Positions 831 to 13,746 of a DNA stretch of 33,986 bases are shown here, in pieces; within the stretch, counting starts at the first letter, position 1, and the number at the start of each line of letters is the position of its first letter. The position numbers and the translations under genes are program-made. The stretch is from positions 1 through 33,986 of the forward strand of contig NZ_JADEXE010000040.1 in assembly GCF_015207265.1 (NCBI RefSeq). The letters are read 5' to 3'. Under the pieces are notes generated by a model that was not told the DNA's origin, did not search any database, and worked only from the letters and a program-made list of their open reading frames with translations. This stretch comes from Nodosilinea sp. LEGE 07298. GTDB taxonomy: Bacteria > Cyanobacteriota > Cyanobacteriia > Phormidesmidales > Phormidesmidaceae.

Positions 831-2762
831 CTATCCCTGCATTTGATAGCGGCCCAGGGCCATCAGCGGAAAGTGATGGCGGTAAAGGTGATAACGAATA
901 TAAAAGTGGCGGGGAAAGCCGGTGCCGGTAAACTCCTGTTCCTCCCACGTGCCCTCGGGGGTCTGAGTCTCAATCAGATAGCGAATGCCCTTTTGGACAG
1001 CCAACTCGGCGGTTCTAGAACAACCCACGTCGAGCAGCCCCAGCAGCGCCCAAGCAGTTTGAGACGGCGTGCTCGGCCCCTGCCCCTTGAGGGTAGGGTC
1101 GTCGTAGCTGCGGCAGGTTTCGCCCCAGCCGCCATCGGGGTTTTGGCAGCTAACCAGCCAGTTAACCGCGCGCGCGATCGCCCCTTGACCCCGTTCTGGA
1201 GCCACGAGCGCCAGCGCCGATAGCGCGCCGCTGGTGCCGTAGATGTAGTTCACGCCCCAGCGGCCAAACCAGCTACCATCGGCCTCCTGTTCGTTGAGCA
1301 GAAAAGTGAGGCCTTGTTCGAGCCGCTGGGCGGTGAGATCGCGGGCGTAGCGTGCCGCCAGGCCGGGTTCGCGGCAGAGGCGACCGTGCATCTCCAGCAC
1401 CCGAGCGGTGATGTCGGCAGTGCTGGGGTCGATCATCGCTTTGAGATCGCCGTAGGGAACGGCATTGATCCAGTCTTGGTCGTTGTTGATGTCGAAGGCG
1501 GCCCAGCCTCCGGTTTTGCACTGCATGGTGGCCACCCAGCGCACGGCCCGGGCGATCGCCTCGCGCTTTAGCGCCGCGTCGGGCAGGACGACATCTTGCA
1601 GCGCCATCGCCACCACCGCCGTATCGTCCACATCGGGGTAGAAGCGGTTCTCAAACTCAAAGGCCCAGCCCCCCGGCTGGCCCTGGGGATTTTTGACAAT
1701 CCAGTCGCCGTAGTCGAGAATTTGCTTCTCTAGCAGCCATTCGCCCGCCCGCACCAGGCTGGGGTGATCAGGGGCCAGGCCCGAATCGGTCAGCGATCGC
1801 ATGCCCAGCGCCGTATCCCACACCGGAGAAATGCAGGCCTGCACCCAGTAGGTATCGTCAGTTTCTACCGCAAAGTTGTCGATCGCCCGCAGGCCGCGCC
1901 GCACCACCGGGTCATTCACGTCATAGCCGAGGCAGCGCAGGGCCAGCATCGAGTTCAGCATGGCCGGGATAATGCCGCCCCAGTCACCCGTTGCCTCCTG
2001 CCGCTCTAAAATCCACTGCTCGGCTTTGCGAATACCCTCATCGCGAAACGGCGTGAAGTTGATAGCTTCGGCAAACTTAAACGCGCCATCCAGCCAGATA
2101 AAGATGTCGCTCCAGTCGCCAGCCTTCGGCAGTTCCCAGCGCACGTTACCGATGCCCTCGGCATAGAGTTCATCTACGTTAATGGCCGGTTGGATCTTAT
2201 AGACCGGCTTTTGGTCAAAGACAATCAGCAGCGGCACGGTGCTGCCCCGAGCCCAGCTCGACAGTTCGTAGATAGTGAACGGCGAGGGCGACTCCAGCAG
2301 CATGACCCAGGCGGGCAGCGAGGGCAGACCACGCCAGTCGTAGCAGCCAATCAGAGCCAGGTGCAGCTTGGTGAAAATGCGGGTTTTGCTGATGCCGCCG
2401 CGCTGGAGAATAAAGTCTTTCGCCCGCAGCAGGGCCGGATCGCTGGCGGGTACCCCCAGCACCCGTAGCGCCGTATAGGCCTCGACGGAAGTGCTCAGGT
2501 CGCCGCCGTCGCCGTAGAACAGTTCCCAGCCACCGTGGTCGCGCTGGTGCGATCGCAAATAGTGCTCGGCCTTAGCCATGGGGCGCTTGCTGTCGGTGCC
2601 CCAAATCTTGTGCAGCAGAATGATTTCAGCGGTAATGGTGACGTTAGACTCCAGCTCTGCCCACCAGTAGCCGTCGGGGTGCTGTAGAGCCAGCAGGTAG
2701 TTTTGGGCAGCGGCTATTGCTCGATCCAGCCCGGTTAGCTGCTGCGGTTCTTGAGTCTGCAT
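831..2762 (-). CDS. shc: Squalene-hopene cyclase
   Basis: Cyclises squalene to hopene/hopanol, the committed step of hopanoid synthesis, as a monotopic membrane enzyme. About 643 residues, close to the 631 of the well-studied Alicyclobacillus enzyme. The protonating DxDD motif (DVDD, near residue 378) is intact, and several QW-type repeats are visible, for example KTGGWAAF, EADGSWFGRWG, QNPDGGWGE and QTPEGTWEE. The frame could also start at a GTG at 2768, but the ATG at 2762 has a GAGGGG ribosome site about 5 nt upstream, whereas the GTG lies directly against it, so the ATG is preferred. It is transcribed away from hpnB, which lies about 0.8 kb to the right beyond an Uma2 gene. The family assignment is firm; the exact product mix is not visible. 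Confidence 0.96.
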   Translation of the reverse strand: MQTQEPQQLTGLDRAIAAAQNYLLALQHPDGYWWAELESNVTITAEIILLHKIWGTDSKRPMAKAEHYLRSHQRDHGGWELFYGDGGDLSTSVEAYTALRVLGVPASDPALLRAKDFILQRGGISKTRIFTKLHLALIGCYDWRGLPSLPAWVMLLESPSPFTIYELSSWARGSTVPLLIVFDQKPVYKIQPAINVDELYAEGIGNVRWELPKAGDWSDIFIWLDGAFKFAEAINFTPFRDEGIRKAEQWILERQEATGDWGGIIPAMLNSMLALRCLGYDVNDPVVRRGLRAIDNFAVETDDTYWVQACISPVWDTALGMRSLTDSGLAPDHPSLVRAGEWLLEKQILDYGDWIVKNPQGQPGGWAFEFENRFYPDVDDTAVVAMALQDVVLPDAALKREAIARAVRWVATMQCKTGGWAAFDINNDQDWINAVPYGDLKAMIDPSTADITARVLEMHGRLCREPGLAARYARDLTAQRLEQGLTFLLNEQEADGSWFGRWGVNYIYGTSGALSALALVAPERGQGAIARAVNWLVSCQNPDGGWGETCRSYDDPTLKGQGPSTPSQTAWALLGLLDVGCSRTAELAVQKGIRYLIETQTPEGTWEEQEFTGTGFPRHFYIRYHLYRHHFPLMALGRYQMQG

Positions 2763-2852
2763 GGCCACCCCTCACATCTTGAACGCCGTGATCATTGAGG
2801 CAGCATAATGCAAATGCTCCCGCCAAGGAAAGATAAGCAGGATGAAATTCGG

Positions 2853-2911: not shown

Positions 2912-3475
2912 CTAGAAAAAACTACTGATCGGGCAGGAAAACTCTGGCAGCAGGGGCGATTCGAGATCATCTGTTGCCAGTAGCGTCGCGACTCGCTGTA
3001 GCTGAGCCTCTTGGCGGCGATAAATTTCAACCTGCCGTAGCCGCCAGTTGGCAATCCAGTATTCCTGCACGCCTTGCTGAGAGTAGAGTTTGAGCTTAGC
3101 TTCGCGGTCTCGCCGCTCGTTGGTGCTACCTTCAGAGAGCACTTCCACAATCAGTTCTGGTGCGCCGCGCAGGTGTCCTTCGTCATCAGTCAAAGCCGCT
3201 AAGCGATCGTGAGACCCCCAAATCACGTCGGGAATAACGTTATCGGTGTCGGTAAAAATTAGACCTGGAGCCAGGGACGGTTTACCCAGTCCGCTTTGCT
3301 TTGACCATAGGAGTAGCTGAGCATAAATCTCTCCGGCAGTATCTTGATGTTTGATATGGGGAGCGCGAGTCACGCACAGGTCTCCATCAACGATTTCGTA
3401 GCGCTTCCATTCGTCGGCGGCCAGAACCTCAAGGTCGGCAGTCGTCCAGCGGATTTTGGGAGTGGCTTGAGACAT
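2912..3475 (-). CDS. Uma2 family (DUF820) putative restriction-endonuclease-like protein
   Basis: 187 residues, the usual size for the Uma2/DUF820 family, which is greatly expanded in cyanobacteria. The PD-(D/E)xK-like core is visible: IPD (Asp83), ELIVEVLS (Glu111) and EAKLKLY (Lys127/129), followed by the family signature GVQEYWIAN. The ATG is well supported by AGGAGG at 3481-3486, about 6 nt upstream. Biological role is unknown; these genes are usually solitary and scattered, and nothing here ties it to the hopanoid genes on either side. The family call is firm; nuclease activity is inferred from the fold only. Confidence 0.88.
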   Translation of the reverse strand: MSQATPKIRWTTADLEVLAADEWKRYEIVDGDLCVTRAPHIKHQDTAGEIYAQLLLWSKQSGLGKPSLAPGLIFTDTDNVIPDVIWGSHDRLAALTDDEGHLRGAPELIVEVLSEGSTNERRDREAKLKLYSQQGVQEYWIANWRLRQVEIYRRQEAQLQRVATLLATDDLESPLLPEFSCPISSFF

Positions 3476-3572: not shown

Positions 3573-4742
3573 ATGGCAACTTTAGCTTTGGGCTTGACGA
3601 GTCTGGCACTCCTGATCTGGATCGGGATGCTGCTGTTTTGGGGCCAGTTTTGGCGGGCTGACCAGCGGCTGGATGACCAGCGGGTATCGCTGACCACCTG
3701 GCCCACAGTGGCGGTGGTGATTCCGGCCCGCAATGAGGCAGAGCTGATTGGGGTGGCGGTGCGATCGCATCTCACCCAGACCTACCTCGGCCCTTTGAGC
3801 GTGGTGCTGGTAGATGATCAGAGCACCGATGGCACGGCAGCGGTGGCGGGGGAAAGTGCGACTGCGGTAAACCAGTCCGATCGCCTCACGGTACTCTCGG
3901 GCGCAGCGCTTCCGGCTGGCTGGACGGGTAAGCTCTGGGCGATGGAGCAGGGCTTTCGCTACCTGGCGGCGCAACCCACCCCGCCTGACTTTGTGCTCTT
4001 TACCGACGCTGACATCAAGCACGACGCGACCAGTTTGCAGCAGTTGGTGACCAAGGCCGAAGGCGACGGGCTCGATTTAGTGTCGCTGATGGTACGGCTC
4101 CGCTGCGAGAGCATCTGGGAAAAGCTGCTAATTCCCGCGTTTATCTTCTTCTTTCAGCTGCTCTACCCCTTTCCCTGGGTGAACAATCCCCAAAAACAAA
4201 CCGCAGCAGCGGCAGGGGGGTGCGCCCTGATTCGCTTCAGCGCCCTTCAGCGCATCGACGGTCTCCAGGCCATTCGCCAGGCGCTAATCGACGACTGTGC
4301 CCTGGGGGCGGCGGTTAAGGCCAATGGTCCGATCTGGCTCGGCCTCAGCACCACAATCCACAGCCTGCGTCCCTACCCCGATTTGCACAGCATCTGGACT
4401 ATGGTCGCCCGCAGCGCCTATACGCAGCTCAACTACTCGCCCTGGCTGCTGGTCGGCACGGTGCTGGGAATGCTGTTGGTCTACCTGGTCTTTCCCCTAG
4501 GCGTGGTTTTGGGAGTTATTTGGGGCAACCCTGCTCTAGTGCTGACTGGGCTGGCTGGCTGGCTGCTGATGGCTCTCGCCTACTGGCCAACGCTGAAGCT
4601 CTATGGCGGTAGCCCTCTGCTGGCGCTGGCGCTACCGTTGATTGCGCTGCTCTACACCTTGATGACGCTAGATTCGGCACGGCAACACTGGGCCGGGCAG
4701 GGCGGTGCCTGGAAGGGACGAGTTTATAGCGATATAGGGTAA
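3573..4742 (+). CDS. hpnB: Hopanoid-associated glycosyltransferase HpnB
   Basis: 389-residue family 2 glycosyltransferase. It has an N-terminal membrane segment (about residues 1-24), a nucleotide-sugar site DDQSTDGT (81-88), the metal-binding DAD in LFTDADI (145-147), and C-terminal hydrophobic helices (about 290-380). This layout, plus position near shc and hpnH, matches HpnB of hopanoid clusters. HpnB is thought to modify hopanoids with a sugar at the membrane, but its exact substrate is not established. The ATG has no strong ribosome site, and the frame offers no better start. The product could be a related carotenoid- or lipid-type glycosyltransferase; context favours HpnB. Confidence 0.85.
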   Translation: MATLALGLTSLALLIWIGMLLFWGQFWRADQRLDDQRVSLTTWPTVAVVIPARNEAELIGVAVRSHLTQTYLGPLSVVLVDDQSTDGTAAVAGESATAVNQSDRLTVLSGAALPAGWTGKLWAMEQGFRYLAAQPTPPDFVLFTDADIKHDATSLQQLVTKAEGDGLDLVSLMVRLRCESIWEKLLIPAFIFFFQLLYPFPWVNNPQKQTAAAAGGCALIRFSALQRIDGLQAIRQALIDDCALGAAVKANGPIWLGLSTTIHSLRPYPDLHSIWTMVARSAYTQLNYSPWLLVGTVLGMLLVYLVFPLGVVLGVIWGNPALVLTGLAGWLLMALAYWPTLKLYGGSPLLALALPLIALLYTLMTLDSARQHWAGQGGAWKGRVYSDIG

Positions 4743-4889: not shown

Positions 4890-5675
<786 letters not shown>

Positions 5676-5693: not shown

Positions 5694-6704
5694 TTAGAAT
5701 AGGCTGCCCATCGCGCGCATCATATTCTGCGGCTGCAGGGCATCTTCTGCCGCCGTGGGCTCGTAGCCGCAGTGCACCATACAGTCGGCGCACTGGGGAT
5801 TGCCGCTCTTGTGCCCGTACTGCGCCCAGTCGGTATTGTCGAGCAGTTCTTGGAAAGTCTCGTAGTGGCCTTCGTTGAGCAGGTAGCAGGGTTTTTGCCA
5901 GCCCAGCACGCTATAGCTAGGGCTGCCCCAGGGCGTGCAGTCGTAGTCTTTTTGGCCGGTTAAAAAATCCAAAAAGAGCGGATTGTGGTTAAACTCCCAC
6001 TTCTTTTTGCCCGCTGTAAACGGGGCCAAAATTTCTCTAAACAGCGCCTTGGTCTGCTCGCGCTGGAGGAAGTGCTCCTGGTTGGGAGCCCACTCATAGC
6101 TGTAGCCCGGTGACACCATCATGCCGTCTACTTTAAGCTCGGTCAGATAGTCAAATAGCGACTGAATTTCTTTTGGGTCGGTGCCCTCAAACACGGTGGT
6201 GTTGGTGGTCACACGGAAGCCTCGCGCTTTGGCAGCTCGAATCGCGCTGATCGCAATATCGAACACGCCGGAGCGATCGACGCAGCGATCGTGCAGCTCT
6301 TTCATGCCGTCTAAGTGAACGCTAAACGAGAGGTGGGGAGAGGGCGTAAACTTATCCAGACTTTTTTCGAGCAGCAAACCGTTGGTGCAGAGGTAAACAA
6401 ACTTTTTGCGATCGACTAGTCCCTGCACGATCTCATCAATCTGAGGATGCAGCAGCGGCTCTCCACCGGGAATTGAAACCACGGGCGCACCGCATTCTTC
6501 AACTGCCGCAAAGCAGTCTTCGGGTGATAGGTTCTGCTTCAGAATTTCCTTGGGGTGCTGAATTTTGCCGCAGCCCGAGCAGGCCAAGTTACAGCGAAAC
6601 AGCGGTTCTAGCATCAAAACCAGAGGATACTGCTTGCGGCCTCTGAGGCGCTGAGTGACCAAATATTGCCCCACGCCCAGGGCCTGCTGCAGACTGATTG
6701 CCAT
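5694..6704 (-). CDS. hpnH: Adenosyl-hopene transferase (radical SAM)
   Basis: HpnH joins the 5'-deoxyadenosyl group of SAM to diploptene to give adenosylhopane, the precursor of bacteriohopanepolyols. The radical-SAM cluster motif CX3CX2C is intact at Cys38, Cys42 and Cys45 ([10 protein letters not shown]), followed by GGEPLLHP, the usual SAM-binding GGE. A C-terminal Cys group ([10 protein letters not shown]) is typical of the family. Length 336 matches HpnH. The ATG at 6704 is preceded by GAGGAG about 10 nt upstream. It diverges from the terpenoid operon starting at 7114. No hpnG (the next step, releasing ribosylhopane) is seen in this window. Confidence 0.94.
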
Positions 6705-7113: not shown

Positions 7114-7959
7114 ATGCCATCTATCAAATCTGCGCTGGACTTGCTGAGGGAGACTAGCCGAACGTTCTTTATCCCGATTAGCTTGCTACCAGCCAAGCTT
7201 CAGGAAGCGGTTGCGTCTGCGTACCTGTGCATGCGGGCGATCGATCAAATTGAGGATCATCCGACCCTGGATAGTGGCACCAAAGCCAGACTACTGCGCC
7301 AGATTAGCCTCAACCTACAGGCAGGCACTGAAGCTTCAGCGGTAGATGATTTTGCGATCGGGCTAGGCGGCTATGTGGGGCAACTCGACGAAGTGACCCT
7401 CCGCATTGGTGAATGGGCCTTGCTGGCTCCCGATACGATCGCCCCCCGGATCTGGGATGCGACCGCCACCATGGCCGATCGCATGGCCTACTGGGCCGAG
7501 CAAAACTGGCAGATTAAAACCGAAGCCGATCTCGATCGCTACACCTTCAGCGTGGCCGGGGCCGTGGGGTTAATGCTGTCTGATCTGTGGGCCTGGTACG
7601 ACGGCACCGAAACCAGCCGCATGGAGGCGATTGGCTTTGGGCGGGGCCTGCAATCAGTCAACATTTTGCGCAATCACCTGGAAGATAAAGATCGCGGCGT
7701 CGACTTTTTCCCAGAGGGCTGGACTGCAGATGACATGCAGCGCTATGCCCGCCGCAACCTGAAGATGGCCGACTCCTACACCCGCGCCCTGCCCAAAGGG
7801 CCAGCTCTGCTGTTTTGCCGCATTCCCTTAGCGCTAGCCACAGCCACCATCGATGCTCTAGCCCAGGGCCGAGAGAAGCTCAGCCGGGCTGACGTGATGG
7901 CGATCGTGACACCGCTGCTGGGCGTTGGCAAATCGGTCGAACTTATGACTAAAGTCTAG
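7114..7959 (+). CDS. Squalene/phytoene synthase family protein, short form
   Basis: 281-residue head-to-head prenyl synthase homologue (Trans-IPPS_HH fold); the neighbourhood suggests C30 substrates. The first Asp-rich motif DQIED (44-48) is intact, followed by YTFSVAGAVG (143-152). The second motif reads NHLED (187-191), with Asn where classical squalene and phytoene synthases have the first Asp; the rest of the block (NILR before, GVDFFPEGW after) is well kept. It is shorter than cyanobacterial squalene synthases (usually about 350 residues) and lacks the C-terminal part. GAGGAG about 8 nt before the ATG supports the start. The aminotransferase follows after 37 bp. It could make presqualene diphosphate or squalene for Shc, or be a variant acting on another prenyl substrate. 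Confidence 0.85.
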   Translation: MPSIKSALDLLRETSRTFFIPISLLPAKLQEAVASAYLCMRAIDQIEDHPTLDSGTKARLLRQISLNLQAGTEASAVDDFAIGLGGYVGQLDEVTLRIGEWALLAPDTIAPRIWDATATMADRMAYWAEQNWQIKTEADLDRYTFSVAGAVGLMLSDLWAWYDGTETSRMEAIGFGRGLQSVNILRNHLEDKDRGVDFFPEGWTADDMQRYARRNLKMADSYTRALPKGPALLFCRIPLALATATIDALAQGREKLSRADVMAIVTPLLGVGKSVELMTKV

Positions 7960-7996
7960 TTAGACCCGATACTGCCCCTCTTTACCTCGCTAGTGC

Positions 7997-9385
7997 ATGA
8001 ACATTCTGGATCGCATCGCCGAGCGTCAGCGCGACAATTTCTCGCTGCACAGCCAGTACCTTAACCCTCAAATGGTCAACGTCCTCAAGACCATTGGGTT
8101 CGATCGCCATTACGTGAGAGCTGAGGGGCCTTATCTATTTGACGACCAGGGCGATCGCTACCTCGACCTGCTCAGCGGGTTTGGCGTGTTTGCGCTGGGC
8201 CGCAACCATCCCAAAATTGTGCAGGCTTTGCAGGACGTGCTGACCGCCGAACTGCCCAACCTGGTGCAGATGGATGTGTCGATTCTGTCTGGACTCTTAG
8301 CGGAAAAACTACAGCAGATCACGCCGCCGGGGCTAGACCGCATCTTTTTTGCCAACTCTGGTACCGAAAGCGTCGAGGCGGCGATCAAGTTCAGCCGCTA
8401 TGCCACGGGTCGCGCCAAGATTGTCTACTGCGAAGGGGGCTATCACGGCCTCACCATGGGGTCTTTATCCGCCACGGGTGACCCCCACTTTAAGGAGGGC
8501 TTTGGTCCCTTTTTGCCCGATTTCATCGAAATTCCCTTTGGTGACTTGGCTGCCCTAGAAAAGGTCTTGTCTCGTAAAGATGTGGCCGCCTTTATCACCG
8601 AGCCGATCCAGGGGCACGGGGTGTGGATTCCTGAGGCCGATTACCTACCCGGCGCGGCGGCGCTGTGCCGTCAGTATGGCAGCCTGTTCATCGCCGATGA
8701 GGTGCAGACCGGGCTAGGCCGCACGGGTAAATGGTGGGCGGTAGACCACTTTGGCGTTGAGCCCGATCTACTCTGTATGGCCAAGGCCCTCTCCGGCGGG
8801 TTTGTGCCTATTGGGGCCGTAGCCTGCCGATCCTGGATTTTTGACAAGGTATTCAACCGCATGGATCGCGCCGTTGTTCACGGCAGCACCTTCGGCAAGA
8901 ACAATTTGGCTATGGCAGCCGGTCTGGCCACCCTAGATGTGCTCGAAACTGAGGGCTGGATTAACCACGCGGCCCAGATGGGACAGCAGATTGTGGCTGA
9001 TTTGCAGCCCCTGGTCAGCCAGTACGACTGTCTGAAAGCGGTGCGGGGCCTGGGCATGATGATGGCGCTGGAGTTTGGCGAGCCCAAGAGCCTGAAGCTG
9101 AAGCTGTCGTGGAAGATGCTGGAGACCGCCAACCGAGGTCTGTTTTCCCAAATTATTACGGTGCCGCTGTTTACTCGCCACCGGATTTTGTCTCAGGTGG
9201 CCGGGTACGGCATGAACGTGGTCAAGTTTATTCCGCCCCTGACCCTGCAAGAGAGCGATCGCCGCTGGATTGTCGAGGCCGTCACCGATGTGGTGGCCGA
9301 TGCTCACCGCATACCAGGGGCCGCCTGGGACTTCGGCAAAACCCTGGCCACCCAGGCGATGAAAACTAAAGCCGGAGCCCGGTAG
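7997..9385 (+). CDS. Class III PLP aminotransferase, possibly HpnO-like
   Basis: 462-residue fold-type I aminotransferase of the acetylornithine/HpnO branch. Visible features are the PLP phosphate site NSGTESVEAAIK (120-131), the ring-stacking GGYHG region (147-151), Asp234 in IADEVQTG and the Schiff-base Lys263 in MAKALSGG. HpnO is the class III enzyme that makes aminobacteriohopanetriol in other bacteria, so a hopanoid amine is a reasonable guess given shc and hpnH nearby. However, this gene sits between a prenyl synthase homologue and a sulfotransferase, which is not the usual HpnO setting. The start ATG at 7997 has a weak ribosome site; the sulfotransferase begins 9 bp after the stop, so the three are very likely co-transcribed. 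Confidence 0.82.
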   Translation: MNILDRIAERQRDNFSLHSQYLNPQMVNVLKTIGFDRHYVRAEGPYLFDDQGDRYLDLLSGFGVFALGRNHPKIVQALQDVLTAELPNLVQMDVSILSGLLAEKLQQITPPGLDRIFFANSGTESVEAAIKFSRYATGRAKIVYCEGGYHGLTMGSLSATGDPHFKEGFGPFLPDFIEIPFGDLAALEKVLSRKDVAAFITEPIQGHGVWIPEADYLPGAAALCRQYGSLFIADEVQTGLGRTGKWWAVDHFGVEPDLLCMAKALSGGFVPIGAVACRSWIFDKVFNRMDRAVVHGSTFGKNNLAMAAGLATLDVLETEGWINHAAQMGQQIVADLQPLVSQYDCLKAVRGLGMMMALEFGEPKSLKLKLSWKMLETANRGLFSQIITVPLFTRHRILSQVAGYGMNVVKFIPPLTLQESDRRWIVEAVTDVVADAHRIPGAAWDFGKTLATQAMKTKAGAR

Positions 9386-9394
9386 CCTTAGCCT

Positions 9395-10507
9395 ATGGCA
9401 AGCCTGTTTCATCCGCTCTGCGGCAGCAACCCGCCCACCCTGCTGAAGCTGTTTTTAGACAATGGACTACCTAGCCGCGATCGCTACCCCCAGGCAGCTC
9501 TAGCACTGGCGGTATCGCTAGCCCGCTGGCCCTTTTCAACGGTAGAACAGGCGGTGTTTGCGCTATCCCCCAAAAAGCAAATGCCGGACCCCATCTTTAT
9601 TGTCGGCTATTGGCGATCGGGCACCACCCACCTGCACAACGTGATGGCCCAGTGTCCGGCCTTTGGCTACATTACCCCGCTGGCAACGGGGATGCCGTGG
9701 GATATTTTGGGCATAGTGCGATCGCTGGAACCGCTGCTAGAGCAGGCTCTACCTCAGGACCGCTATGTGGATAATGTGGCAGTAACGCCGACCTCCCCCC
9801 AGGAAGATTCCATTCCCCTGGCGACCATGGGGGCGGCCTCCTACTACCACGGCATGTACTTTCCTCAGCACTTTGAAACTCACTTTCGGCAAGAGGTGTT
9901 TTTAGCGGGAGGCGAGGACCATATTGAGCATTGGAAACGTCTGCATCGCCACCTGCTGCAAAAAGTTTCGGTGCACCAGGGGCACCGCCCGCTGCTGATT
10001 AAAAACCCGGTTTACACCGGCTATATTCGTCACCTGCGATCGCTATGGCCTAGGGCCAAGTTCATTCACATCTACCGCAATCCCTACCGGGTGTTTCCCT
10101 CGGCGCGGCACTATTTTACAAGATTACTGCCCGAGCTGGCGCTGCAAGACTACGGCGATTTGCCAATTGATGAGCTGGTTTTGGAGAGCTACCCGTTTCT
10201 GTTAGACGCGCTCAAAACCGATACGGCGGATCTGCCCTCTAATCAATTTGCGGAGGTTCGCTTTGAAGATTTACAGAGCAATCCGCTGCCAGAGCTACAA
10301 CGCCTGTTTGAACAGCTAGAGCTACCCGATTTTGAAACTGCTCGCCCCGATTTTGAAACTTACTTGGCAGGGCTAAAAGACTACCGCCAAAACCAGTACA
10401 ACCTTGATGCTAAAACCATTCAAATCATTGAAACTCACTGGGGTTCCTATATCCAAAGCTGGGGCTATAGCTTGGCGGACGAAGGGCTTTGCTCAAACTC
10501 GATCTGA
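9395..10507 (+). CDS. PAPS-dependent sulfotransferase family protein
   Basis: 370 residues with the two co-substrate sites of the Sulfotransfer_3 family. The 5'-phosphosulfate loop is GYWRSGTTHLHN (71-82) and the 3'-phosphate site is HIYRNPYRVFPS (225-236); LIKNPVYTGYI (201-211) lies between them. It would transfer sulfate from PAPS to a hydroxyl or amine of a small molecule or lipid. It starts 9 bp after the aminotransferase stop, so it is the third gene of a compact operon, and the acceptor may be the product of the first two enzymes. The 3' end runs antisense to a decayed ABC transporter fragment. The family is firm; the acceptor is inference. Confidence 0.88.
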   Translation: MASLFHPLCGSNPPTLLKLFLDNGLPSRDRYPQAALALAVSLARWPFSTVEQAVFALSPKKQMPDPIFIVGYWRSGTTHLHNVMAQCPAFGYITPLATGMPWDILGIVRSLEPLLEQALPQDRYVDNVAVTPTSPQEDSIPLATMGAASYYHGMYFPQHFETHFRQEVFLAGGEDHIEHWKRLHRHLLQKVSVHQGHRPLLIKNPVYTGYIRHLRSLWPRAKFIHIYRNPYRVFPSARHYFTRLLPELALQDYGDLPIDELVLESYPFLLDALKTDTADLPSNQFAEVRFEDLQSNPLPELQRLFEQLELPDFETARPDFETYLAGLKDYRQNQYNLDAKTIQIIETHWGSYIQSWGYSLADEGLCSNSI

Positions 10508-10787: not shown

Positions 10788-11849
10788 CTAGCCGATGATT
10801 TCAGGAGCCTGAGCCGTAGCTAGGTCGAGGGGGAAGTTGTGAGCATTGCGCTCGTGCATTACTTCCATACCCAGGTTCGCACGGTTGATCACGTCAGCCC
10901 AGGTGCCAATCACACGACCCTGTGAGTCAAGGATCGACTGGTTGAAGTTGAACCCATTCAGGTTGAACGCCATCGTGCTGATGCCGAGAGCGGTGAACCA
11001 GATGCCAATCACAGGCCACGCACCCAAGAAGAAGTGCAGAGAGCGGCTGTTGTTGAAGCTGGCATATTGGAAGATCAACCGACCGAAGTAGCCGTGGGCT
11101 GCCACGATGTTGTAGGTCTCTTCTTCTTGGCCAAACTTGTAGCCGTAGTTCTGAGACTCGGTCTCGGTGGTTTCACGCACTAGTGAAGAGGTCACCAGCG
11201 AACCGTGCATAGCGGAGAACAAGGAACCACCGAACACACCGGCCACACCCAGCATGTGGAAGGGGTGCATCAGAATGTTGTGCTCAGCCTGGAAGACCAG
11301 CATGAAGTTGAAGGTACCCGAGATACCCAAAGGCATGCCGTCGGAGAACGAACCTTGGCCCAGAGGATAGATGAGGAATACAGCAGAGGCAGCGGCCACG
11401 GGTGCGCTGTAAGCAACGCAGATCCAGGGGCGCATGCCCAAGCGGTAGCTCAGTTCCCACTCACGACCCATGTAGCAGAAGACGCCAATGAGGAAGTGGA
11501 AAATTACCAACTGGTAAGGGCCACCGTTGTACAGCCACTCATCGAGGGAAGCGGCTTCCCAGATGGGGTAGAAGTGCAAGCCAATGGCGTTCGAGGAAGG
11601 CACAACCGCACCGGAGATGATGTTGTTGCCGTACATCAGGGAGCCAGCAACGGGCTCACGGATGCCATCGATGTCGACGGGGGGTGCAGCGATGAACGCT
11701 ACGACGAAGCAGGCGGTAGCAGCGAGCAGGGTAGGAATCATCAACACGCCGAACCAGCCTACATACAGGCGGTTCTCGGTGCTGGTGACCCACTGGCAAA
11801 ACTGCTCCCACAGGGAGGCAGATTGTTGTCTTTGGAGAGTCGTTGTCAT
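10788..11849 (-). CDS. psbA: Photosystem II D1 protein, E130 form
   Basis: D1 reaction-centre subunit of photosystem II in the thylakoid membrane. It carries P680, pheophytin, QB and most ligands of the oxygen-evolving Mn4CaO5 cluster. 353 residues; all key residues are in register: Tyr161, Asp170, Glu189, His190, His198, His215, Ser264, His272, His332, Glu333, His337, Asp342 and C-terminal Ala344. Residue 130 is Glu, the form associated with high-light D1 in cyanobacteria with several psbA copies. The cleaved extension after Ala344 is only 9 residues (TAQAPEIIG), as in plants, instead of the common 16. The ATG has no clear Shine-Dalgarno sequence. Other psbA copies are expected elsewhere in the genome. 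Confidence 0.99.
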
Positions 11850-11919
11850 GATTTGGATAAGTGCAAGTTAGGTTTGCTTGGTGCCCGTCCGAGAGGACAA
11901 GCAAGTTATGTATGTACTT

Positions 11920-11948
11920 ACATTAACCGTAATGTTGCAGTTTGTAAA
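11920..11948 (-). promoter_or_regulatory. Candidate psbA promoter
   Basis: On the minus strand, TTTACA (11943-11948) and TAATGT (11920-11925) are separated by 17 bp. This would put the transcript start near 11913, with a leader of about 65 nt, typical of psbA. The -10 matches only half of the consensus. A small stem (GTCC/GGAC) lies in the leader near 11890. No other gene lies between here and the ggt stop at 12151; the rest of this 301-bp gap is filled by the decayed repeats listed separately. Confidence 0.45.
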
Positions 11949-12013
11949 CATGCCCTGTGGTTAATGTCTCAAATATCTCGCCAAGGCGTACGGCTGTGTG
12001 CCCTTGACCAGAT

Positions 12014-12036
12014 TCATGCTGTCATTCAGCAACGCT
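12014..12036. repeat. Solo terminus of the copy-A MITE family (copy C)
   Basis: TCAT, 8 nt, then TCAGCAACGCT has the same layout as the right end of the 91-bp MITE at 10683-10705, with 10 of 11 terminal bases identical. A possible left end at about 11931 (AATGTTGCAGT, 8 nt, ATGC) is weak, and no target duplication supports it. So only this end is claimed. It lies about 70 bp upstream of the proposed psbA -35. Confidence 0.55.
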
Positions 12037-12048
12037 AAAGGTTACAGG

Positions 12049-12149
12049 GGAGGTGCTGTACACAGGTATGAACCATACATTCAACGTCTCTCGTAGGGAA
12101 AAACGGCCGTTTTCCCATCCCTAAAGTCATGCATCAATTTGGCAACGCC
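12049..12149. mobile_element. 101-bp decayed MITE of the copy-A family (copy B)
   Basis: The left end GGAGGTGCTGT is followed after 8 nt by ATGAACC, exactly the spacing and inner bases of copy A. The right end is TCAT, 8 nt, TTGGCAACGCC. The flanks GTTACAGG (12041-12048) and ATTAGAGG (12150-12157) agree at 6 of 8 positions, consistent with an old target duplication. The ggt stop codon (12151-12153) lies inside the right-hand duplicate, so the element probably inserted at the very end of ggt. A hairpin fills its centre. Confidence 0.55.
12096..12116 (-). terminator. Possible ggt terminator inside the decayed MITE
   Basis: GGGAAAA, CGGCCG, TTTTCCC (with one extra A on the plus strand) forms a near-perfect palindrome about 35 bp beyond the ggt stop. 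On the minus strand the stem ends in a run of T. It may terminate ggt before psbA. Because it lies in the middle of a mobile-element relic, the terminator would have been brought in by insertion. Confidence 0.4.
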
Positions 12150-12150
12150 A

Positions 12151-13746
12151 TTAGAGGTGTGCGATCGCGCCATCACTTCTGGGGTCACACCCGCCCCGCA
12201 AGCCATCTGCATTAATTTGAATGGCATGGGCATGGCCCATCTGGTCGGCCCAGGCGGGGACCACTTTTAGCTGATGTCCCCGACCTGCTAAGGCTTGCTG
12301 CACATCCACAGGAATGCGGCTCTCCACGGCAAGCTCGGTGGTCGCCTCGCCCCAGGTGCGGCCCCATACCCAGCGGGGTAGATCGATCGCCGTCTGTGGG
12401 TCAAAGCCAAAGTCAAGCATTCGCGTCAGCAGCGCCAGCTGAGTTTGGGGTTGGCCCTCACCGCCCATGGTGCCAAGCACCAGGTAGGGGCGGCTCTGGC
12501 TATCTAGCACCAGACCCGGCATTAAAGTGTGAAAGGGGCGCTTGCCGGGTTCTAGGGTATTGGGGTGGTCGGGGCTGAGTGAAAACAGCGCCCCTCGGTT
12601 TTGGAGCGGAAAACCCAGGTCGGGCGGTACTACTGCCGAGCCAAAGTCAAAGTAGTTGCTTTGGATAATTGAGACGGCGTTACCTTCGCCATCGACCACA
12701 GCGGTGTAGGTGGTGTCACCACCGACCTCAAGGGCTGGGTAGTGCTGGGCGACGGCCATACTCAACTGTGCCCTACGGCGATCGCCGTAGGACTTCGAAA
12801 TCAGCTCTGTGAGCGGAATGTCGCTAAAGTCGGGGTCGCCCAGCCAGCGATCGCGGTCGGCAAAGGCTAGCTTAGTAGCCTCAACTAGCAGGTGGTAGTA
12901 GTCGGCGGTGCCGTGGCCGATGGTGTGCAAGTTAAACCCCTCCAGCACATTCAGCATTTGCAGCACGGTAAAGCCCTGGGTATTGGGTGGCAGTTGGCAC
13001 ACCTGATAACCCCGGTACGTGGTGCTAATTGGGTCTACCCAGGTGGTCGTGTGGCGGGCAAAGTCGTCCGGGCTGAGCAACCCACCCAAGCTGTCTAGGT
13101 AAGCAATTAAGCTGGCGGCAATCTCACCCTGGTAAAAGTCTTGGGGGCCAGCGGTCGCCAAGCGTCGCAGAGTTTTGCCCAAGGGGCGATTGGTAACTTG
13201 AACGCCTGCTTCGGGCACCGTGCCACCGGGTAAAAAGGGATTGTTTGCGCCGCCATAGGCTTCTAAATGGCCCTGATTCACCCGTGTCCAGTGGGACTGG
13301 GAAGCAGAAATAGGGTAGCCCTGCTCAGCGAGTTCGATCGCAGGCTGAAGCAAGTCGGCCCAGGGCAGGTGACCAAAGCGCTGGTGAGCTTCGCCCCAGG
13401 ATGAAACCCCTCCCGGTACTGTAATAGCGGCCTGGGGGCCGCGCTGGGGAATGGTACCTAGGCCCAGGCGAGCAAAAGCGGCGCGATCGCACCCAGCCCC
13501 CGCTCGCCCTGACCCATTAAGGCCATACAGCTGCCCTGAACCAGTGTGGTAGCCCAGCCAGAACGCGTCGCCGCCCAGCCCAGTCATGTGGGGATAGACC
13601 ACTGCTAGGGCCGCCTGGACTGCGATCGCCGCATCCACCGCATTGCCCCCCTGGCTAAGTACATTTGACCCAGCGGTAGAGGCGAGGTAGTGGGGGCACA
13701 CCACCATTGCCGTAGGCTGCTGAGGGTGGGAAGTAGAGAAAGACAT
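12151..13746 (-). CDS. ggt: Gamma-glutamyltransferase
   Basis: Hydrolyses or transfers the gamma-glutamyl group of glutathione and related peptides. 531 residues forming a self-cleaving precursor. The N-terminal GNAVDAAIA and MTGLGGDAFWL are family signatures. The autocatalytic nucleophile is the first Thr of DTTYTAVVD (Thr345), just before EGNAVS. Where many relatives have TTH, this protein has TTY, as in several GGT-like hydrolases. No signal peptide is visible, so it may be cytoplasmic or exported another way. The ATG has a weak AGG ribosome site. Its stop codon lies in the target-site duplicate of a decayed MITE. Confidence 0.93.
   Translation of the reverse strand: MSFSTSHPQQPTAMVVCPHYLASTAGSNVLSQGGNAVDAAIAVQAALAVVYPHMTGLGGDAFWLGYHTGSGQLYGLNGSGRAGAGCDRAAFARLGLGTIPQRGPQAAITVPGGVSSWGEAHQRFGHLPWADLLQPAIELAEQGYPISASQSHWTRVNQGHLEAYGGANNPFLPGGTVPEAGVQVTNRPLGKTLRRLATAGPQDFYQGEIAASLIAYLDSLGGLLSPDDFARHTTTWVDPISTTYRGYQVCQLPPNTQGFTVLQMLNVLEGFNLHTIGHGTADYYHLLVEATKLAFADRDRWLGDPDFSDIPLTELISKSYGDRRRAQLSMAVAQHYPALEVGGDTTYTAVVDGEGNAVSIIQSNYFDFGSAVVPPDLGFPLQNRGALFSLSPDHPNTLEPGKRPFHTLMPGLVLDSQSRPYLVLGTMGGEGQPQTQLALLTRMLDFGFDPQTAIDLPRWVWGRTWGEATTELAVESRIPVDVQQALAGRGHQLKVVPAWADQMGHAHAIQINADGLRGGCDPRSDGAIAHL

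Follow-up and report, generated by a model that had tools for sequence, protein, structure and literature searches.

What would a sulfotransferase gene be doing among hopanoid genes in a cyanobacterium? The question is raised by a contig of Nodosilinea sp. LEGE 07298 (NZ_JADEXE010000040.1 of assembly GCF_015207265.1), which we analyzed as one window of 33,986 nucleotides, an entire contig of a 7.25-Mb genome. Three genes follow one another on its forward strand: gene 1 (7114..7959, 281 amino acids [aa]; PF00494 [SQS_PSY], 92 bits), gene 2 (7997..9385, 462 aa; PF00202 [Aminotran_3], 327 bits), and gene 3 (9395..10507, 370 aa; PF13469 [Sulfotransfer_3], 109 bits), all with scores exceeding the Pfam gathering score. 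An earlier reading of the letters alone, here called the original prediction, described a compact prenyl synthase, aminotransferase, and sulfotransferase operon beside hopanoid genes. We find that the conserved unit is the pair formed by genes 2 and 3, an HpnO-family aminotransferase and a sulfotransferase, and not the trio. We consider it rather probable that the locus encodes bacteriohopanepolyol synthesis extended by a tailoring step, in which gene 3 would sulfate aminobacteriohopanetriol or a related bacteriohopanepolyol.

The arrangement described in the original prediction is borne out. The three reading frames lie on the plus strand with gaps of 37 bp between genes 1 and 2 and 9 bp between genes 2 and 3, and their neighbors are hpnH for an adenosyl-hopene transferase (5694..6704, minus strand, divergent from gene 1; TIGR03470, 551 bits), hpnB for a hopene-associated glycosyltransferase (3573..4742, plus strand; TIGR03469, 562 bits), and shc for a squalene-hopene cyclase (831..2768, minus strand; TIGR01507, 932 bits), all three over their curated NCBIfam cutoffs. 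No homologues of the HpnG, HpnA, RND, and ABC exporter genes seen in the hopanoid loci of relatives were found within the window.

Genes 2 and 3 occur together well beyond this contig. Among 57 relatives, a sample that includes the window's own genome, gene 2 (at least 77% identity) and gene 3 (at least 61%) are present in an identical set of 14 genomes, adjacent in every one; in a phylum-wide sample of 339 genomes, gene 2 is in seven and gene 3 (at least 59%) in the same seven, these being the window's genome and six of one genus, inferred to be Microcystis. Nine further genomes of that sample carry only 28 to 38% homologues of gene 3. We assembled 32 cyanobacterial carriers as distinct loci, namely 28 of the 32 gathered by a gene 2 search together with G008, G011, G033, and the window; the non-cyanobacterial L138, L139, and L142 were left out, and L145 (Virgibacillus, 34%) was not accepted as carrying gene 2. 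Gene 3 is present in all 32 and lies 1 to 49 bp downstream of gene 2 on the same strand in 28. In Xenococcus PCC 7305 (L126) it is 1.7 kb downstream, with two genes between HpnO and the sulfotransferase (11430-13099), one with a HIRAN domain and the other with no Pfam or NCBIfam match; in L123, L137, and L143 it is elsewhere in the genome, outside the locus, and the L137 contig ends within gene 2. The three non-cyanobacterial gene 2 carriers searched (two Nitrosomonas and one Myxococcales) have no gene 3 match. The co-occurrence and adjacency of the pair across its carriers lead us to reject a chance adjacency of genes 2 and 3.

Gene 1 behaves differently: of the 32 loci, 12, among them the window, have it 33 to 145 bp upstream of gene 2, and a thirteenth has it 2.8 kb upstream; the three-gene string is limited to close relatives. 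The survey for a conserved trio that the original prediction proposed recovers the pair throughout and the trio in a minority of loci; scattering of the three genes, which was to count against the idea, is seen for gene 1 only.

The pair also goes with hopanoid genes. In the genus, represented by 26 genomes, the pair is found in 13, precisely those in which Shc and HpnH exceed their cutoffs, and the other 13 are without both Shc and the pair. We searched 33 carriers for the two proteins (14 relatives and 19 reached via their loci; 30 cyanobacteria and three others), with L146 and L147, whose loci hold the pair, standing outside this search. Shc is over its cutoff in all 33 and HpnH in 32. An in-frame TAG counted in the Shc of eight Microcystis carriers is the normal stop at the gene end in the two checked (L228 and L229). 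For 16 of the 32 carriers, including the window, the locus retrieved contains hopanoid genes. The order HpnH, Sqs, HpnO, sulfotransferase, ABC exporter, RND, HpnG, HpnB, and Shc is whole in six loci; other orders are Shc, HpnB, sulfotransferase, HpnO, HpnG, and RND (G006), RND, HpnG, HpnO, and sulfotransferase with HpnH on a different contig (PCC 7104; G009), and sulfotransferase paralogue, HpnA, sulfotransferase, and HpnO (G033). In Microcystis and Pleurocapsales-type loci an HpnL-like gene follows the pair, scoring 145-161 bits (cutoff 195.65) in the four that were tested. The enzyme classes for backbone, amine, and sulfate and their hopanoid context, as originally predicted, stand, and the context recurs in other arrangements and lineages; a dedicated prenyl synthase, as discussed below, does not.

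Gene 3 is a sulfotransferase predicted to use 3′-phosphoadenosine 5′-phosphosulfate (PAPS). Two of its stretches, which read RSGTT and RNPY.VF.S in gene 3, are presumably the PAPS-binding sites; the former is kept in 22 of 22 aligned proteins and the latter in most. The predicted structure is of moderate confidence (mean predicted local distance difference test score 65.3) and was used for the fold class alone; its best matches are mycobacterial STF1 (E = 3.6e-7) and STF9 (E = 6.0e-7), with CurM and other sulfotransferases also matched. STF1, STF9, and the CurM sulfotransferase are the closest solved structures by both profile and fold, at only 16 to 17% identity.

The surroundings of gene 3 homologues bear on what it may act upon. 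In G028, a homologue (48%) adjoins HpnA in a cluster of HpnA, HpnH, Sqs, ABC, HpnG, HpnB, and Shc, and HpnO was not found in that genome (best gene 2 match, E = 1.9e-49); in G033, a second sulfotransferase paralogue, also 48% identical to gene 3, likewise adjoins HpnA. Among plasmid matches, whose surroundings we examined for seven of 19 records (H3, H5, H7, H8, H10, H11, and H15), a 44% homologue shares its region with HpnA, Shc, and HpnH on three Azospirillum plasmids, those of Azospirillum brasilense Sp 7, A. brasilense MTCC4038, and A. argentinense Az39. The A. brasilense HpnA (292 bits, cutoff 367.65) and HpnM (146 bits, cutoff 160.1; Sp 7 only) are under their cutoffs. This A. brasilense sulfotransferase, unannotated in its records, resembles gene 3 in sequence and in its hopanoid cluster but has no adjoining HpnO; according to PMC12583986, hpnO is restricted to Hyphomicrobiales within the Alphaproteobacteria, and amino hopanoids are found more widely than hpnO. 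A further 44% homologue, in G036, has no hopanoid gene on its 6-kb contig. In a sulfotransferase tree, gene 3 and its orthologues form one clade (97/99) with the G028, G033, Azospirillum, G036, and A. oryzae proteins, apart from six other cyanobacterial sulfotransferases.

Relatives at 35 to 38% identity are found in operons of the order crtI-crtI-acyltransferase-glycosyltransferase-sulfotransferase in A. oryzae, A. ramasamyi, and Palleronia (loci L151, 1-9080; L226, 1-7074; and L227, 1-7110). Their gene content suggests a sulfated carotenoid glycolipid. They share with gene 3 an isoprenoid lipid context and, for the A. oryzae member, the joint clade, but they differ in their lower identity and in having carotenoid-type rather than hopanoid genes. 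A Gloeothece homologue (30%) is beside a polyketide synthase, and weaker cyanobacterial homologues (30-39%; G017, G030, G054, G377, G657, and G552) have no hopanoid gene within their ~4-kb loci, one of the six holding an ABC exporter that resembles the one in hopanoid loci. Because the readable contexts of the near homologues are mostly those of isoprenoid lipids, they argue for a lipid acceptor, and we predict that in Nodosilinea this acceptor is a hopanoid.

We place gene 2 in the HpnO family, known from Rhodopseudomonas palustris, by comparison with cyanobacterial, myxobacterial, proteobacterial, and Streptomyces hpn-cluster proteins. Residues K263, D234, E235, and Q237, which we take to be the conserved lysine and DE-Q-G region of class III pyridoxal phosphate aminotransferases, are invariant in seven aligned orthologues. 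No NCBIfam model among its matches is named HpnO, and the best 25 of 69 are all below their cutoffs. The nearest homologues are from Tildeniella, Phormidium, Nodosilinea, Leptolyngbya, and other filamentous cyanobacteria, and one on a Streptomyces fungicidicus plasmid is 52% identical over 98%, at the end of a cluster annotated as hpnE, polyprenyl synthetase, shc, isoprenoid reductase, hpnH, ispG, dxs, and then the aminotransferase. In PMC9228677, an aminotransferase of a Streptomyces cluster is named HpnO and the strain yields N-acetyl-aminobacteriohopanetriol; PMC4676935 reports that aminobacteriohopanetriol increased in R. palustris with inducible hpnO.

Across 299 Pseudomonadota genomes, a gene 2 homologue at 49 to 59% identity (57-59% in 11) occurs in 12, all among the 37 HpnH-positive genomes and within 5 kb of hpnH in eight. 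The associated P values leave common descent out of account and serve for orientation. Two matches at 44 to 45% in HpnH-negative genomes (G205 and G297) are exceptions to this tracking, and together with a second, 42% copy in G266 they were excluded from the HpnO count. In an aminotransferase tree of 38 rows, with 10 of the 12 proteobacterial genomes counted as HpnO carriers (all but G110 and G275) and with some long rows unsure, the cyanobacterial, myxobacterial, proteobacterial, and Streptomyces hpn-cluster aminotransferases group together, apart from PigE-like and ArgD-like proteins. An identity as PigE or ArgD is rejected both by this position and by models scoring below cutoffs. Gene 2 thus resembles HpnO in fold class, in grouping with the Streptomyces hpn-cluster enzyme, and in the tracking of HpnH, with G205, G297, and a Rhizobium protein described below as exceptions; it differs from known HpnO in its coupling to a sulfotransferase in every cyanobacterial carrier found. 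By its family it probably adds an amine to hopanoids, and this predicted activity requires no new pathway.

Gene 1 does not belong to the pair. Counting it as present at E < 1e-100, and thereby excluding distant squalene-synthase-like matches in G034, G037, G045, and G052 (E > 1e-15), we find it in 26 of the 57 relatives, all 26 with Shc over its cutoff (30 of the 57 have Shc); genes 2 and 3 are missing from 13 of these 26. In G033 and G009 the pair is located away from gene 1, and in G006 gene 1 was not found although the pair is present. The Shc-positive relatives without gene 1 are G006, G045, G049, and G052, and in G045 and G052 a homologue that is longer than gene 1 and shares 28% identity with it lies within 3 kb of Shc. 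A prenyl synthase dedicated to the pair is rejected on this distribution, as gene 1 follows Shc and not genes 2 and 3.

What gene 1 makes could still be questioned, since its second Asp-rich motif has Asn in place of the first Asp and it scores 75.5 bits on the squalene synthase model TIGR01559, under the cutoff of 286.75; on these grounds it might be a prenyl synthase that has degenerated or been repurposed to serve genes 2 and 3. We think this very improbable. The Asn is in all 26 orthologues (that of the window and L007-L031), every one from a Shc-positive relative and 13 of them without genes 2 and 3; Asp is usual at that position in four distant homologues of the same alignment, and the first motif, DQIED, is intact. 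Only one other PF00494 protein is present in the window's genome, and we take it for phytoene synthase. PMC3953072 describes two cyanobacterial types of squalene synthase, 359 aa in T. elongatus and 277 aa for sll0513 of Synechocystis, 29.5% identical to each other; deletion of sll0513 abolished squalene, and it is reported as >60% identical to cyanobacterial homologues. At 281 aa and present only alongside Shc, gene 1 is likely of the short sll0513 type, a match drawn from length and the published homologue identity, and from which the Asn is a difference. Given the co-occurrence with Shc, the two published types, and the matching length, we regard gene 1 as most likely the general squalene synthase that feeds hopanoid synthesis.

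Beyond the family identities, linkage, co-occurrence, and phylogeny described above, we infer a substrate, a step order, and a role for gene 3 from the genes present. Gene 1 would make squalene, Shc would convert it to hopene, and HpnH would attach the adenosyl side chain; HpnG, encoded in the loci of relatives and not in the window, would release ribosylhopane, which gene 2 would transaminate to aminobacteriohopanetriol. Gene 3, PAPS dependent and encoded right after HpnO, would then sulfate aminobacteriohopanetriol or a close derivative, giving an anionic or zwitterionic hopanoid. As for the position of the sulfate, homologues of gene 3 occur in hopanoid clusters of organisms in which HpnO was not found or is reported absent, so O-sulfation, on a side-chain hydroxyl or a sugar, appears more likely than N-sulfation; the amine as the site, at first the leading idea, is lowered for the same reason.

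Several observations weigh against sulfation of a hopanoid by gene 3. A. brasilense Sp 7, which has a hopanoid-linked homologue, gave only adenosylhopane by ultrahigh-performance liquid chromatography-high-resolution mass spectrometry (UHPLC-HRMS), according to PMC12583986. Distant homologues of gene 3 serve other pathways, in the carotenoid glycolipid clusters and the Gloeothece polyketide locus, and the HpnO group of the tree takes in, on a long branch, a Rhizobium protein encoded at a phosphonate locus. One carrier of the pair, Microcystis aeruginosa LEGE 91341 (G063), lacks an HpnH over the cutoff; the HpnG of relatives (71-91 bits, cutoff 187.1) and cyanobacterial HpnA (353-365 bits, cutoff 367.65) are under theirs; and the window has no HpnG that we could find. 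Near the pairs of Microcystis and Xenococcaceae there are no core hopanoid genes, only the HpnL-like gene under its cutoff or an ABC exporter.

This last point, with Pegethrix as a further case, would suit a pair that serves a product other than a hopanoid, such as an amino-sulfo metabolite for export, with its hopanoid neighborhood in Nodosilinea being incidental; so would the resemblance of gene 2 to PigE and putrescine aminotransferases and the flanking of the pair in several loci by ABC exporters whose family takes its name from cyclic peptide export. We regard such a product as quite unlikely, because Shc is present in every carrier searched and the half of the genus without Shc is also without the pair, because HpnO-group proteins of Pseudomonadota go along with HpnH, and because the hopanoid links of the pair recur in several arrangements. 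Somewhat less unlikely, though still doubtful, is that the acceptor of gene 3 is a hopanoid extended by glycosylation or otherwise (for example by a sugar or cyclitol added via HpnB or HpnA) rather than the HpnO product itself, the tie of gene 3 to HpnO coming from co-regulation or a later common intermediate. HpnB is encoded in the window, homologues of gene 3 adjoin HpnA in G028 and G033 and lie near it in Azospirillum, and the 35 to 38% relatives come after a glycosyltransferase in the carotenoid clusters. Gene 3 follows HpnO and not HpnB, however: HpnB-like genes (58-76%) occur in the pair-less loci of G028 and G047, and 28 of the 32 pairs are directly adjacent. We prefer aminobacteriohopanetriol, or a bacteriohopanepolyol related to it, as the probable acceptor.

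Hopanoid biosynthesis is known, and a sulfotransferase as one of its tailoring enzymes is apparently unreported. A literature search that mostly did not extend to subscription journals turned up neither a sulfated hopanoid nor a linkage between hopanoids and a sulfotransferase; in their accessible parts, PMC12271159 has no sulfotransferase in its text and PMC4558948 has one for olefin synthase only, and neither links hopanoids with a sulfotransferase. The accessible portions of the literature examined likewise make no mention of HpnO in cyanobacteria, to which our finding points.

Azospirillum may offer a reason why such lipids could have gone unseen. PMC12583986 reports that Rohmer degradation of A. 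brasilense Sp 7, a strain with the six key genes, yielded no products and that UHPLC-HRMS showed only adenosylhopane; its authors explain the result by adenosylhopane alone. The same paper states that Rohmer degradation requires two vicinal hydroxyls. With that requirement, the method could miss a side chain that is sulfated. We propose tentatively, with more doubt than confidence, that sulfated bacteriohopanepolyols are an overlooked lipid class in cyanobacteria (Nodosilinea and its relatives, Microcystis, and Xenococcaceae) and some Azospirillum, having escaped notice because the Rohmer method depends on vicinal hydroxyls being free and screens look for masses already known; the Sp 7 result would fit a masked polyol, and the cyanobacterial product would be a zwitterionic amino-sulfate hopanoid.

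Few bacterial lipids are preserved in rocks as well as hopanoids, whose side chains serve to trace producers. A sulfotransferase in the pathway predicts an anionic hopanoid class in bloom-forming Microcystis and mat-forming cyanobacteria that the usual methods may miss, and offers a gene marker for it.

Transport genes accompany the pair, namely an ABC exporter and, in Nodosilinea, also an RND pump (L100, 12106-17326; L124, 8092-9756; L143, 6414-8081; L137, 4354-5997; and L135, 3657-4875). The exporter matches TIGR01194, the model named for cyclic peptide export, in the four loci tested (L100, L111, L124, and L143); it and the Nodosilinea RND pump are candidates for export of the product. Two other genes of the window recur beside hopanoid genes: an NAD-binding gene resembling short-chain dehydrogenases/reductases (4899-5675) adjoins hpnH here and in L118, L119, and L146, and a putative Uma2-type endonuclease gene (2912-3475) lies between shc and hpnB, with a homologue (86-87%) that adjoins hpnB in L120 and L121.

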